Assembly (NCBI RefSeq): GCF_000510645.1
Contig: NZ_KI783301.1
Location: forward strand, 2,301,151-2,365,150
From: Thermicanus aegyptius DSM 12793
Lineage (GTDB): Bacteria; Bacillota; Bacilli; Thermicanales; Thermicanaceae
Direction of reading: 5' to 3'
DNA: 64,000 nt
Shown piece after piece: positions 38,334-42,440 of this stretch; the first letter of the stretch is position 1; each line of letters begins with the position of its first letter. The notes under the pieces are model-generated. The model had not been told where the DNA came from, searched no databases, and saw nothing but the letters and a program-made list of their open reading frames with translations. Both the position numbers and the translations under genes were made by a program.

Positions 38334-40241
38334 TTACCGATGATGAACGAAATTGAGAATATCCTTGGGGAATAATCCTTGGATCTCACCAATCTCCTCC
38401 AACGCAACGCTTTTTTCCTCCTCTTGAGGATCGAATACAAAGCCGACGATGAGGAGACGATTTTCCCTTTTCTCCATCTTAAGCGGAATAAAAAAAGGAA
38501 ACTCTTCTCCCCCTTTTACCCTGAAGCCCACCGGAATTTCATACTGTATCGATTTGGAAAGGAGGTCCGTCAATGTCGTCAGATGATACGAACGATATTG
38601 GGTAAACCAAGACCGGGGGAAGTGGGAAAGAAAAGGAAGGGAATCATTCCATTCCGGAAAGATATTTTCCACCCTCAACTCCCAATCATGATGTACTTGG
38701 AAAAGAAGAGGGAGGGGATAGCCCATCTCCTCTTCAGCCTCTCCGGGTTTTAGCACCTCTTCCAGCGGAGAATAACCCGCCTGAGACAACTTGCGACGAA
38801 AAACTTTCATCTCCTTACGCCTCACGGCAAAAACCGTAGGTGCCAATTGGCCGGCAAGATAGGGCTGAAAGGCAGGATTTTTCCCGATTTCTTCGGCCAA
38901 GCTCTCCGACTCGCAAACTAAGATGAGTACATCATAAAAGCGGAGTTTCCCATGAAGATCCGCCCACTGCTCTACCGTTCGCCTCACATTTTCCGGAACC
39001 GAATACGATAAATTCCGAAGCTCTTCCAGGATCTCCTCCACACTTAATCCCTGCTCCACCGCGAACGCAATCGAGTCCTTCGTCAATTCATAGAGGATCA
39101 TTTGATCCTCCGTCTTCATCTTCGCCAATCGGGCCAATCGATGGCGGAGGTGAAAAGGGGCCTCCAAGGAAACCATATATTGGAAGTTCGGCTGCAGATA
39201 GAAGCGCTCCTCCTCCACCGACTCAAACCGAGGGAGAGCAACTTCCAGCTCTTCCCCCCTTTTTCTGATCAAAAGCCCCATCCACTCTTGCAAAGGAAAA
39301 AGGACCTCGTCTTCAAATTCTTTCTCATTCAAACCTTTCAGTTCATACCCGTTTTGATTCAAAAAACGAAAAAAAAAGGAGATCGGGATCCAAACCCCTT
39401 TGGGAAAAAGGAGAAGCCAATCAAAAACATTCCGATGGAGAGGGGGAAAGAGAGGATAGACCCGTTCCTCCAGATAGGTTAAGAATCGTTCAACGCTCTC
39501 CTCCACTTTCTCCTCAAGAAAAAGCCGATATTTTTCCATGTTGATTACAATTCGGTCTCCCTTTTGAATCAAAAGCTCCCGGTATGCGGCGAAATCAAGG
39601 ATCGAAGCAAGCAGTGGGGAATAAAGCTCCTCTCCTTCGTAAGCGAAATCGCATGGAAAAGAGGGGTGTTTCAAGTCCAACTCATCCTCAATCTGTTGTA
39701 CCTGACGTTTATGAATCAGTCCTTTTTGCGTTAAGGAAAGGGGATTTTTCCATACATATTCGGTGAGAGCATATTCGGTGAGAGCATACATTTTCCTCAG
39801 TAGAAGGGGCAAAGGAGCTCTGCCTTCCACGGGTTGTAATTTTTCGGTGGAAGGTTGGGCCAGAACCTCCAACAAGGCACGCCGTAAATCATCGGGAAGA
39901 AAAAATTTGGGATCTCCCACATAAGCGCGATGGGTATAGAGGAAACCTTTTTGTCTAAGCAGTGTTAAGGCAATCAAAAGGAAGGGATATGGTATCGAAA
40001 TCGTTTCCATCATCACCTTGGGGAAAACGGCTGTGGAGGGGGGCAGTAAAAGGAAGTAAAAGAGAACTTGCTGTTCATCCTTTGACATATCCTCCCATAT
40101 TTTTTTTAAGACCTCCCGATTTAGTAGGAAGGATAAGGTACGGTCTTCTTCTTTGCTGAAATCCCGATCGGCATAATGTGTCGTTAAGATTTTTTTTAGG
40201 GTCTTTGTTGAGAGCATTTCCACACACTGAATCAGTTTCAT
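38334..40241 (-). CDS. helicase-associated (XPB-like) domain protein without helicase core
   Basis: 635 aa. The C-terminal half has the Helicase_C_3/XPB-associated pattern: FYLQPNFQYMVSLEAPFHL, LTKDSIAFAVEQGLSVEEIL and FYDVLILVCESESLAEEI. There are no Walker or DEAH motifs. The N-terminal 350 residues are helical with winged-helix-like segments. Such proteins occur in Bacillales with unknown function. A 15-bp tandem repeat at 39756-39785 doubles YALTE. Confidence 0.7.
   Translation of the reverse strand: MKLIQCVEMLSTKTLKKILTTHYADRDFSKEEDRTLSFLLNREVLKKIWEDMSKDEQQVLFYFLLLPPSTAVFPKVMMETISIPYPFLLIALTLLRQKGFLYTHRAYVGDPKFFLPDDLRRALLEVLAQPSTEKLQPVEGRAPLPLLLRKMYALTEYALTEYVWKNPLSLTQKGLIHKRQVQQIEDELDLKHPSFPCDFAYEGEELYSPLLASILDFAAYRELLIQKGDRIVINMEKYRLFLEEKVEESVERFLTYLEERVYPLFPPLHRNVFDWLLLFPKGVWIPISFFFRFLNQNGYELKGLNEKEFEDEVLFPLQEWMGLLIRKRGEELEVALPRFESVEEERFYLQPNFQYMVSLEAPFHLRHRLARLAKMKTEDQMILYELTKDSIAFAVEQGLSVEEILEELRNLSYSVPENVRRTVEQWADLHGKLRFYDVLILVCESESLAEEIGKNPAFQPYLAGQLAPTVFAVRRKEMKVFRRKLSQAGYSPLEEVLKPGEAEEEMGYPLPLLFQVHHDWELRVENIFPEWNDSLPFLSHFPRSWFTQYRSYHLTTLTDLLSKSIQYEIPVGFRVKGGEEFPFFIPLKMEKRENRLLIVGFVFDPQEEEKSVALEEIGEIQGLFPKDILNFVHHR
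39756..39785. repeat. 15-bp tandem duplication in a coding region
   Basis: ATATTCGGTGAGAGC occurs twice head to tail and adds five residues (YALTEYALTEY) in frame. It is a small replication-slippage duplication. Confidence 0.9.
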
Positions 40242-40427: not shown

Positions 40428-40655
40428 ATGGACTTTACCCTGAGAAAGTCGTATGTTCCTTATGCGAGTCCCCACGATCCCTGCCCACCTATTTACGTAA
40501 AAACATATGTAACCCATCCGGCCCTCTATGTGGGATACCAACCTCCCGGGCTCCCTCAATTCCCCCCCTATGAGGCGCTCAGAACAGGAACTTTATGGCC
40601 CATTTTCTACGACCCCTATGGAAGAAATCATGAGCGTCAGGAGGGTGAAACATGA
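40428..40655 (+). CDS. cotJA: spore coat protein CotJA
   Basis: 75 aa, Pro- and Tyr-rich: SPHDPCPPIYVKTYVTHPAL, YQPPGLPQFPPYEALRTGTLWP and FYDPY match CotJA. The ATG follows AAGGAGGG. Its TGA overlaps the cotJB ATG. In B. subtilis cotJABC is a sigma-E operon whose products enter the coat; I could not place the promoter in the 186-bp upstream gap. Confidence 0.93.
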   Translation: MDFTLRKSYVPYASPHDPCPPIYVKTYVTHPALYVGYQPPGLPQFPPYEALRTGTLWPIFYDPYGRNHERQEGET

Positions 40656-41362
40656 GCGAGGAACAGAAGAAAAAGAAAGAGCAACATCGTTATGGCGATC
40701 CCCTCTCCGCAGGGGAAGAAAAGAGTCACTTCGGTTCCGACGAAAAACAGGCAAAAAATTCTCCGTATGAAGACTTCGCCGTGAGCGAGAGGGAAGAACT
40801 GCATGAAACCGACCACGGTCTCCTGAATCATCCCTATGGTGCATATCCACCCAACGCGGAGAATCTCGGTGGAGGGGATGCCGGTCTGCCCCACACGGAC
40901 CATGTTTATTGGGCTCATCCCTACCTGCATCCCATGGATCATCTTTATTGGGCTCATCCCTACCTGCCCCACACGGATCATCTTTATTGGGCTCATCCCT
41001 ACCTGCCCCACACGGATCATCTTTATTGGGCTCATCCCTACCTGCCCCACACGGATCACCCACCCTATGGAAAGAAAAAACCCCCCGTCTCGGATATAGG
41101 AAAAGGGGAGCCAAAGGGAGATGATGATCATCTCCTCCATGAATTGCAAGCCATCGACTTTGTCCTCATGGATCTTACCCTTTACCTTGATACCCATCCT
41201 GCGGATGGGACCGCCATCTCCCAATACAACGCTTTAACCCTGCAGAGAAAAAAGCTAAAAGAGGACGTTGAAGCCCGTTTCGGTCCTCTTTCCGGAGCAG
41301 GGCATAGCTTTTCCGGCTATCCTTGGAGCTATAGCCAGACACCATGGCCTTGGCAGGTGTGA
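40652..41362 (+). CDS. cotJB: CotJB with an N-terminal tandem-repeat extension
   Basis: 236 aa, against under 100 for usual CotJB. Residues about 155-236 (LLHELQAIDFVLMDLTLYLD, DTHPADGTAIS and the end PWSYSQTPWPWQV) are a normal CotJB. The first 150 residues are extra: a charged stretch (1-55), a His/Tyr/Asn-rich linker, four 13-residue repeats of H-(V/L)-YWAHPYL-PHTD type (residues 84-135) and a Lys/Gly-rich spacer. The single frame is open and coupled to cotJA and cotJC, so the extension should be translated. It could give coat cross-linking (Tyr) or metal binding (His). Confidence 0.9.
   Translation: MSEEQKKKKEQHRYGDPLSAGEEKSHFGSDEKQAKNSPYEDFAVSEREELHETDHGLLNHPYGAYPPNAENLGGGDAGLPHTDHVYWAHPYLHPMDHLYWAHPYLPHTDHLYWAHPYLPHTDHLYWAHPYLPHTDHPPYGKKKPPVSDIGKGEPKGDDDHLLHELQAIDFVLMDLTLYLDTHPADGTAISQYNALTLQRKKLKEDVEARFGPLSGAGHSFSGYPWSYSQTPWPWQV
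40901..41056 (+). repeat. four 39-bp tandem repeats within cotJB
   Basis: Units at 40901-40939, 40940-40978, 40979-41017 and 41018-41056, each coding 13 residues. The last three are identical; the first differs (HVYWAHPYLHPMD). A partial unit (CTGCCCCACACGGAC) precedes them at 40886-40900. The near identity implies recent expansion and likely length variation between strains. Confidence 0.97.
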
Positions 41363-41383
41363 GGAAAGGAAGCGTGAGAAACC

Positions 41384-41953
41384 ATGTGGATTTATGAGAA
41401 AAAACTGCAATATCCGGTACGTGTCAGCACCTGTGATCCCGGCCTGGCAAAGCTTTTGATCGAACAGTACGGCGGGGCTGACGGGGAACTGGCGGCGGCA
41501 CTTCGCTATCTTAATCAGCGCTACACCATCCCCGATAAAGTGATCGGCCTTCTGAATGACATCGGAACGGAAGAATTTGCCCACCTGGAGATGATCGCCA
41601 CCATGGTTTACAAATTGACGAAGGACGCGACGCCGGAGCAATTGAAAGCCCATGGCCTCGCACCCCATTTCGTCAATCACGGCATGGACCTTCACTTCCA
41701 CAATGCGGCCGGTCATCCATTCACCGCCACCTATTTCCAGGCCAAAGGGGATCCCATCGCTAACCTTTACGAAGATATTGCCGCTGAAGAGAAAGCCCGG
41801 GCTACCTATCAATGGCTGATCGATCTAACCGATGACGAAGACTTAAAGGATAGCTTACGGTTCTTGCGGGAGAGGGAAATTATTCACTCCCAGCGCTTTC
41901 GGGAGGCGGTGGAGATCCTGAAGGAGGAAAAGGAAAAGAAGAAATATTATTAA
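41384..41953 (+). CDS. cotJC: CotJC, manganese-catalase-like coat protein
   Basis: 189 aa ferritin-like four-helix protein. Metal ligands are visible in GADGELAAALRYLNQRY, GTEEFAHLEMIATMVYKL, EEKARATYQWLIDLTD and REREIIHSQRFREAVE (Glu-x2-His pattern). It matches the CotJC branch of manganese catalases, which decompose peroxide or serve as coat components. It is the third gene of the cotJ operon, 21 bp after cotJB. Confidence 0.95.
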   Translation: MWIYEKKLQYPVRVSTCDPGLAKLLIEQYGGADGELAAALRYLNQRYTIPDKVIGLLNDIGTEEFAHLEMIATMVYKLTKDATPEQLKAHGLAPHFVNHGMDLHFHNAAGHPFTATYFQAKGDPIANLYEDIAAEEKARATYQWLIDLTDDEDLKDSLRFLREREIIHSQRFREAVEILKEEKEKKKYY

Positions 41954-42032: not shown

Positions 42033-42440
42033 TTATTTCACCTCGATGGGGAACACCCGCTCAATCCCGTAAGGCTCATGGTTATTGTGGGTCAACTCCA
42101 CCTTGACCGTATGTTTCCCTGGGGGAAGATGAGACTCCACATGAACGCTCTTAAAAATCTTAGCCACCTTTTTCCCATCGATAAAGAGGTGAATATGGCC
42201 CTCTCCGTAGACCTTTTTCTTCCCCATCTGTTCTTTCGTCAACCGAAAATGACGAAGGTGAAATTCCAGGAAGAGCTTATTTCCTTTCACATGGTAGATC
42301 ACATCCATTTCAGGAGCTGGGGCAAAAGAGGATACTCCTTCCGCCCCTTTTTCCATGGCCATCACGGGGAAGGAATGAAGAAGAAGGAGGGAGATGGGAA
42401 GGAGGATCTGAAAAGATTTTTTTAATAGGTTATGGAACAT
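42033..42440 (-). CDS. secreted protein of unknown function
   Basis: 135 aa. The N-terminus has Lys residues, a hydrophobic core (about 12-27) and a cleavage-like VMA-ME, so it is a secreted protein. The mature part is beta-rich and has GEGHIHLFIDGKKVAKIFKS and LPPGKHTVKVELTHNNHEP, like the immunoglobulin-type YtkA/FixH-related domains seen in copper- and cell-envelope proteins. Several His could bind metal. No certain function. Confidence 0.75.
   Translation of the reverse strand: MFHNLLKKSFQILLPISLLLLHSFPVMAMEKGAEGVSSFAPAPEMDVIYHVKGNKLFLEFHLRHFRLTKEQMGKKKVYGEGHIHLFIDGKKVAKIFKSVHVESHLPPGKHTVKVELTHNNHEPYGIERVFPIEVK

Follow-up and report, generated by a model that had tools for sequence, protein, structure and literature searches.

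CotJB of Thermicanus aegyptius DSM 12793 was found to carry, ahead of a conserved helical domain, an N-terminal tail of 159 residues that is predicted to be disordered and is built, at least in part, from tandem copies of a 39-bp unit encoding a His/Tyr/Trp-rich 13-mer. We propose that this multivalent tail, which repeat expansion would have added to a conserved coat domain, serves as a spacer or cohesive element, a reading to which we give about an even chance. The stretch of DNA analysed, 64,000 nucleotides in all and hereafter called the window, contains the following features.

40428-41953, + strand: cotJA-cotJB-cotJC operon
40428-40655, + strand: cotJA, first gene of the operon, 75 aa (Pfam CotJA PF11007, E=5.4e-8)
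40639-40644, + strand: Shine-Dalgarno sequence AGGAGG, 7 nt ahead of the cotJB ATG (read from the sequence)
40652-41362, + strand: cotJB including its N-terminal tail, 236 aa (open reading frame; Pfam CotJB)
40652-41128, + strand: CotJB N-terminal tail, 159 aa, predicted disordered (AlphaFold2 pLDDT)
40886-41058, + strand: 39-bp tandem array, 4.4 copies, units of LPHTDHLYWAHPY type (TRF score 304; unit listing)
41129-41359, + strand: CotJB conserved domain, a helical hairpin and then a C-terminal PWPWQV (Pfam; AlphaFold2; 66-sequence alignment)
41384-41953, + strand: cotJC, Mn-catalase family, 189 aa (Pfam Mn_catalase, E=3e-73; PDB alignments)

The Pfam CotJB profile (PF12652) matched residues 160-235 only of the 236-residue protein (E=1.4e-23; 83.3 bits against a curated cut-off of 29), covering profile positions 2-76 of 76. 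This bears out an earlier sequence-only reading, which had described a normal CotJB preceded by extra residues and a Mn-catalase-like CotJC as its operon neighbour: cotJB lies between cotJA and the Mn-catalase family gene cotJC, with Pfam matches on both sides. At 236 residues, the protein falls outside the size of ~80-100 residues that is usual, though not strictly defining, for CotJB. The cotJA stop and the cotJB ATG overlap as ATGA, and the start context reads cag-AGGAGG-gtgaaac-ATG. In-frame ATG, GTG or TTG codons are found at residues 1, 44, 95, 165, 173 and 236, of which residue 1 alone has a Shine-Dalgarno sequence, while residues 165 and 173 fall within the conserved domain. Judged by these signals the start at residue 1 is secure, and the possibility raised earlier, that an internal start near 41120 is the only one used, receives no support. 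An annotation or assembly artefact (a true start inside the gene, or a misassembled array) seems to us scarcely credible. Because the repeat unit lacks stops in more than one frame on either strand, its openness is no proof of coding; the cotJB frame is nevertheless supported because it is continuous with the CotJB domain and coupled to cotJA. Misassembly is countered by the shortness of the array (173 bp) in a genome assembled as one contig of 3.66 Mb. When a sigma-E-like promoter was sought upstream of cotJA, the best scores equalled the shuffled median and none rose above background.

The tail measured 159 residues against the usual ~10, close to the ~150 extra residues first proposed. TRF reported an array of period 39 with 92% matches over 173 bp, by far the strongest in the window, and the unit listing agreed with the four 39-bp repeats, three of them identical, that the sequence-only reading had described: read from His, four 13-residue units follow one another, HVYWAHPYLHPMD and then three of HLYWAHPYLPHTD, the latter being identical at the DNA level over 39 bp each. 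The array is single-copy, with no second copy in its own genome. These results uphold, at least for part of the tail, the proposal that it arose by repeat expansion. Its 159 residues include 19 His, 14 Asp, 13 Tyr, 4 Trp and 3 Gln, and K+R minus D+E amounts to -13. The repeat region (residues 79-138, 60 residues) is 43% H+Y+W, with 14 His and 8 Tyr, and is devoid of K and R. In a comparison of the window's 155 open frames of 100 aa or more, the richest 60-residue stretch of CotJB held 27 H/Y/W and the next best 15. Pfam and NCBIfam gave zero matches over the tail, where known metal-binding motifs were likewise absent. Elsewhere in the window, a 15-bp tandem repeat at 39755-39788 (2.3 copies, 100%) duplicates the peptide ALTEY in a Helicase_C_3 protein gene (38334-40241, - strand).

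AlphaFold2 was run on an alignment of 66 CotJB sequences taken as unmodified translations (A2); another alignment (A1), with hand-trimmed rows and some approximate N-termini, served as a search query only. The model showed a helical hairpin at residues 156-210, with pLDDT block means of 91-98 over the helix core, and an unstructured tail, with block means of 37-63 over residues 11-150 and values below 50 over residues 83-127. The low tail pLDDT also reflects in part the missing aligned homologues over that region, and the model indicates that the tail is probably intrinsically disordered. A sequence search of the PDB returned zero CotJB relatives, and Foldseek against the PDB found nothing significant (best E=0.45, generic helical hairpins).

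We surveyed CotJB in 399 genomes of the class and 398 of the phylum, and it was present in 230 and 207, respectively. Of the five other genomes that represent the order, one has a CotJB match; this sole other CotJB of the order is normal, with a 94-residue open frame and a match limited to residues 160-236. Most of the surveyed genes start ~10 codons ahead of the domain, and in the first survey (147 distinct frames) most starts supported by a Shine-Dalgarno sequence lay at most 26 residues before it. Here 157 codons separate the cotJA stop from the CotJB domain; the median is 11 for the 132 genes in which cotJA could be recognised, a set in which long tails are over-represented. Several long stop-to-stop frames (G021, 204 aa; G311, 182; G025 and G044, 167; G597, 306; G509, 199) were rejected as tails, their extra length being read as upstream sequence that runs over cotJA in a different frame and their starts lying near the domain, and the apparent C-terminal extension of G621 proved to be a run of N. 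Peptide patterns drawn from the whole protein found no relatives of the tail in GTDB contigs. With the repeat as protein query, the 397 other phylum genomes gave chance-level matches only; four weak ones (E 0.0015-0.005) were discarded, at 24-36% identity and with stops in three of the four. Across GTDB contigs and the surveyed phylum genomes, no second genome with a His/Tyr/Trp tail was found.

Long CotJB tails of other kinds do exist. The sequence-only reading had pointed to other cotJB genes as the place to look for N-terminal extensions, and these were indeed found in Paenibacillaceae, at the same position, but with unrelated composition. Cohnella terricola (L144) and C. lupini (L145) have tails of 48-49 residues made of DRN/ERN-type repeats, and a search of the family revealed a graded series of D/R/N/E tails from ~26 up to 76 (L171) and 89 residues (L168). 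In the Cohnella genomes with DRN/ERN repeats (L144, L145, L168, L171, L175), repeat number and length vary between species. Gln/Asn/Tyr-rich, prion-like tails of 67-82 residues occur in the genus that includes Paenibacillus pabuli (L208, L214, L243), poly-Gln tails of 39-49 aa in one further genus (L206, L207) and a Gly/Ala/Ser tail of 57 aa in another (L186). Pfam confirmed a normal CotJB domain in L168, L208, L207 and L186, and those long-tailed genes whose start can be assigned begin between 8 nt before and 14 nt after the cotJA stop. Of the tails surveyed, the window's is the longest and the only one rich in His/Tyr/Trp; the others have almost no His and most have few Tyr. Since confirmed tails of more than ~40 residues are limited to Paenibacillaceae and the window's genome, tails have likely arisen independently at least twice. 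With different repeat tails at the same place in unrelated bacteria, the N-terminus of this coat protein looks as if it had been rebuilt repeatedly by repeat expansion. In two phylum genomes, a single reading frame encodes a fusion of CotJA and CotJB (L212:492-929, - strand; L213:788-1237, + strand) with both Pfam domains above cut-off, which suggests that the two proteins act together.

CotJC is the only Mn-catalase family protein of the genome. Aligned to the Mn catalase structures 1jku and 1o9i, it has E/E/H/E/H at the five Mn-ligand positions known from the L. plantarum enzyme, which we take to be E, E, H, E and H in 1jku. The gene at 42033-42440 (- strand), convergent with cotJC, encodes 135 aa; its product has an N-terminus like a signal peptide and matches DUF4399 weakly. 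The genome also encodes a Tgl transglutaminase. A multicopper oxidase (L222; G000:C1, about 929 kb) was considered as CotA and set aside in view of its N-terminal membrane-anchor-like segment; it was not used as support.

The main rival to a spacer or cohesive tail, and a serious one, is neutral expansion, in which a permissive CotJB N-terminus gains repeat-coded residues through slippage or unequal recombination with little functional effect. Tail compositions unrelated between lineages, repeat numbers that differ among Cohnella species, three DNA-identical units indicating recent duplication and poly-Gln tails resembling codon-run expansions are all consistent with this. However, the D/R/N/E make-up is kept across Cohnella species while length shifts, and three Paenibacillus genomes have the Q/N/Y make-up in common, a persistence that suggests selection on composition in those lineages; the richness of the 13-residue units in costly Trp, Tyr and His also argues against neutrality. 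We hold neutral expansion to be possible, with a real but minor chance of being the explanation.

Two specific chemistries have also been weighed, metal binding or Tyr cross-linking by the tail, either of which is plausible in that the composition of the tail would permit it, though neither is implied by the presence of CotJC. In the oxidative version, tail tyrosines would be joined as dityrosine during coat maturation beside the peroxide-handling CotJC. The 13 Tyr of the tail (8 within residues 79-138) and the retained Mn-ligand residues of CotJC are in keeping with this, as is a precedent proposed for the coat of C. difficile, oxidative cross-linking of coat proteins by superoxide dismutase with H2O2 (PMC8745062). 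A catalase, however, removes the peroxide that such a reaction needs, most other CotJB tails have few Tyr, and cross-linking through Tgl would find just 3 Gln in the tail; we consider a cross-linking domain improbable. Metal binding, whereby His/Asp-rich units would hold Mn, Zn or Cu as a source or buffer of metal serving CotJC or the coat, would suit the 19 His and 14 Asp of the tail, the 14 His of its repeat region and a sole Mn-catalase family protein with its ligand residues retained. Against it stand the lack of a known motif or a Pfam or NCBIfam match over the tail and the near absence of His from other CotJB tails, and we rate it as even less probable.

Under the spacer or cohesive reading, the CotJB N-terminus would have grown in-frame, with tandem duplication of the 39-bp unit accounting for at least part of the added length. 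The start, coupled to the cotJA stop, and the helical domain would have stayed unchanged on either side. The C-terminal domain would most likely locate CotJB in the coat, in line with other members of the family, a placement that we infer by carrying over what is known of CotJB in other species. There, the tail may act as an intrinsically disordered chain of multivalent stickers that both spaces and glues coat subunits, with the His/Tyr/Trp units adding aromatic stacking and His-mediated contacts dependent on pH or metal.

The closest known systems place this proposal in context. With the CotJB (PF12652) of Bacillus and Clostridium cotJABC operons, the window's protein shares the helical C-terminal domain, the PWPWQV end, the cotJA-cotJB-cotJC order and a start beside the cotJA stop, whereas known CotJBs start ~10 residues ahead of the domain instead of 159. 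The tailed CotJBs of Paenibacillaceae also have a low-complexity, repeat-like N-terminal tail on a normal domain and usually start at the cotJA stop, but their tails (D/R/N/E, Q/N/Y, poly-Q or G/A/S, 89 aa at most) lack His/Tyr/Trp 13-mers and have no sequence relation to the window's. CotG and CotG-like proteins of Bacillus have in common with the window's tail (TRF array, low pLDDT) a disordered tandem-repeat region. In B. subtilis, cotG adjoins cotH; the locus is thus a different one, the neighbours of the window's CotJB being cotJA and cotJC. CotG repeats are strongly positive in most members, contain Ser, are phosphorylated by CotH and come without a CotJB domain, in contrast to the net -13 of the tail described here. 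Among tested precedents, B. subtilis CotG comes nearest: its repeats arose by gene elongation, are lineage-specific, lack homology from one species to another, and determine coat permeability by acting as spacers (PMC9765600). The HLYWAHPY-unit chemistry is also like that of squid beak proteins, whose His/Tyr-rich disordered modular repeats undergo phase separation by way of His deprotonation and Tyr clustering (PMC6884462). This is an analogy only: those proteins are eukaryotic, their repeats differ and they have no homology to the CotJB tail.

The expanded tail had been called undescribed, which is too strong, as repeat-built disordered coat regions are known in CotG (PMC9765600) and low-complexity CotJB tails are widespread in Paenibacillaceae; what stands out as unusual is the His/Tyr/Trp chemistry, the tail's length and the repeated recruitment of the CotJB N-terminus. 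A keyword search of the CotJB literature, confined to open-access articles, found no description of such CotJB tails. A repeat-built disordered region in a coat protein is thus known, and a recurrently tailed CotJB with His/Tyr/Trp 13-mers would be a new variation on it. In a bolder version, which we think unlikely, CotJB would be a modular platform for lineage-specific disordered "material" tails, here a squid-beak-like His/Tyr/Trp sticker polymer condensing in the mother cell and setting coat mechanics, metal content or cross-linking beside a Mn-catalase. CotJB is widespread in spore-formers, and its recurrent, fast-changing tail offers a testable handle. The principle known from CotG, different repeats in the same architecture, would extend to an operon found well beyond Bacillus.
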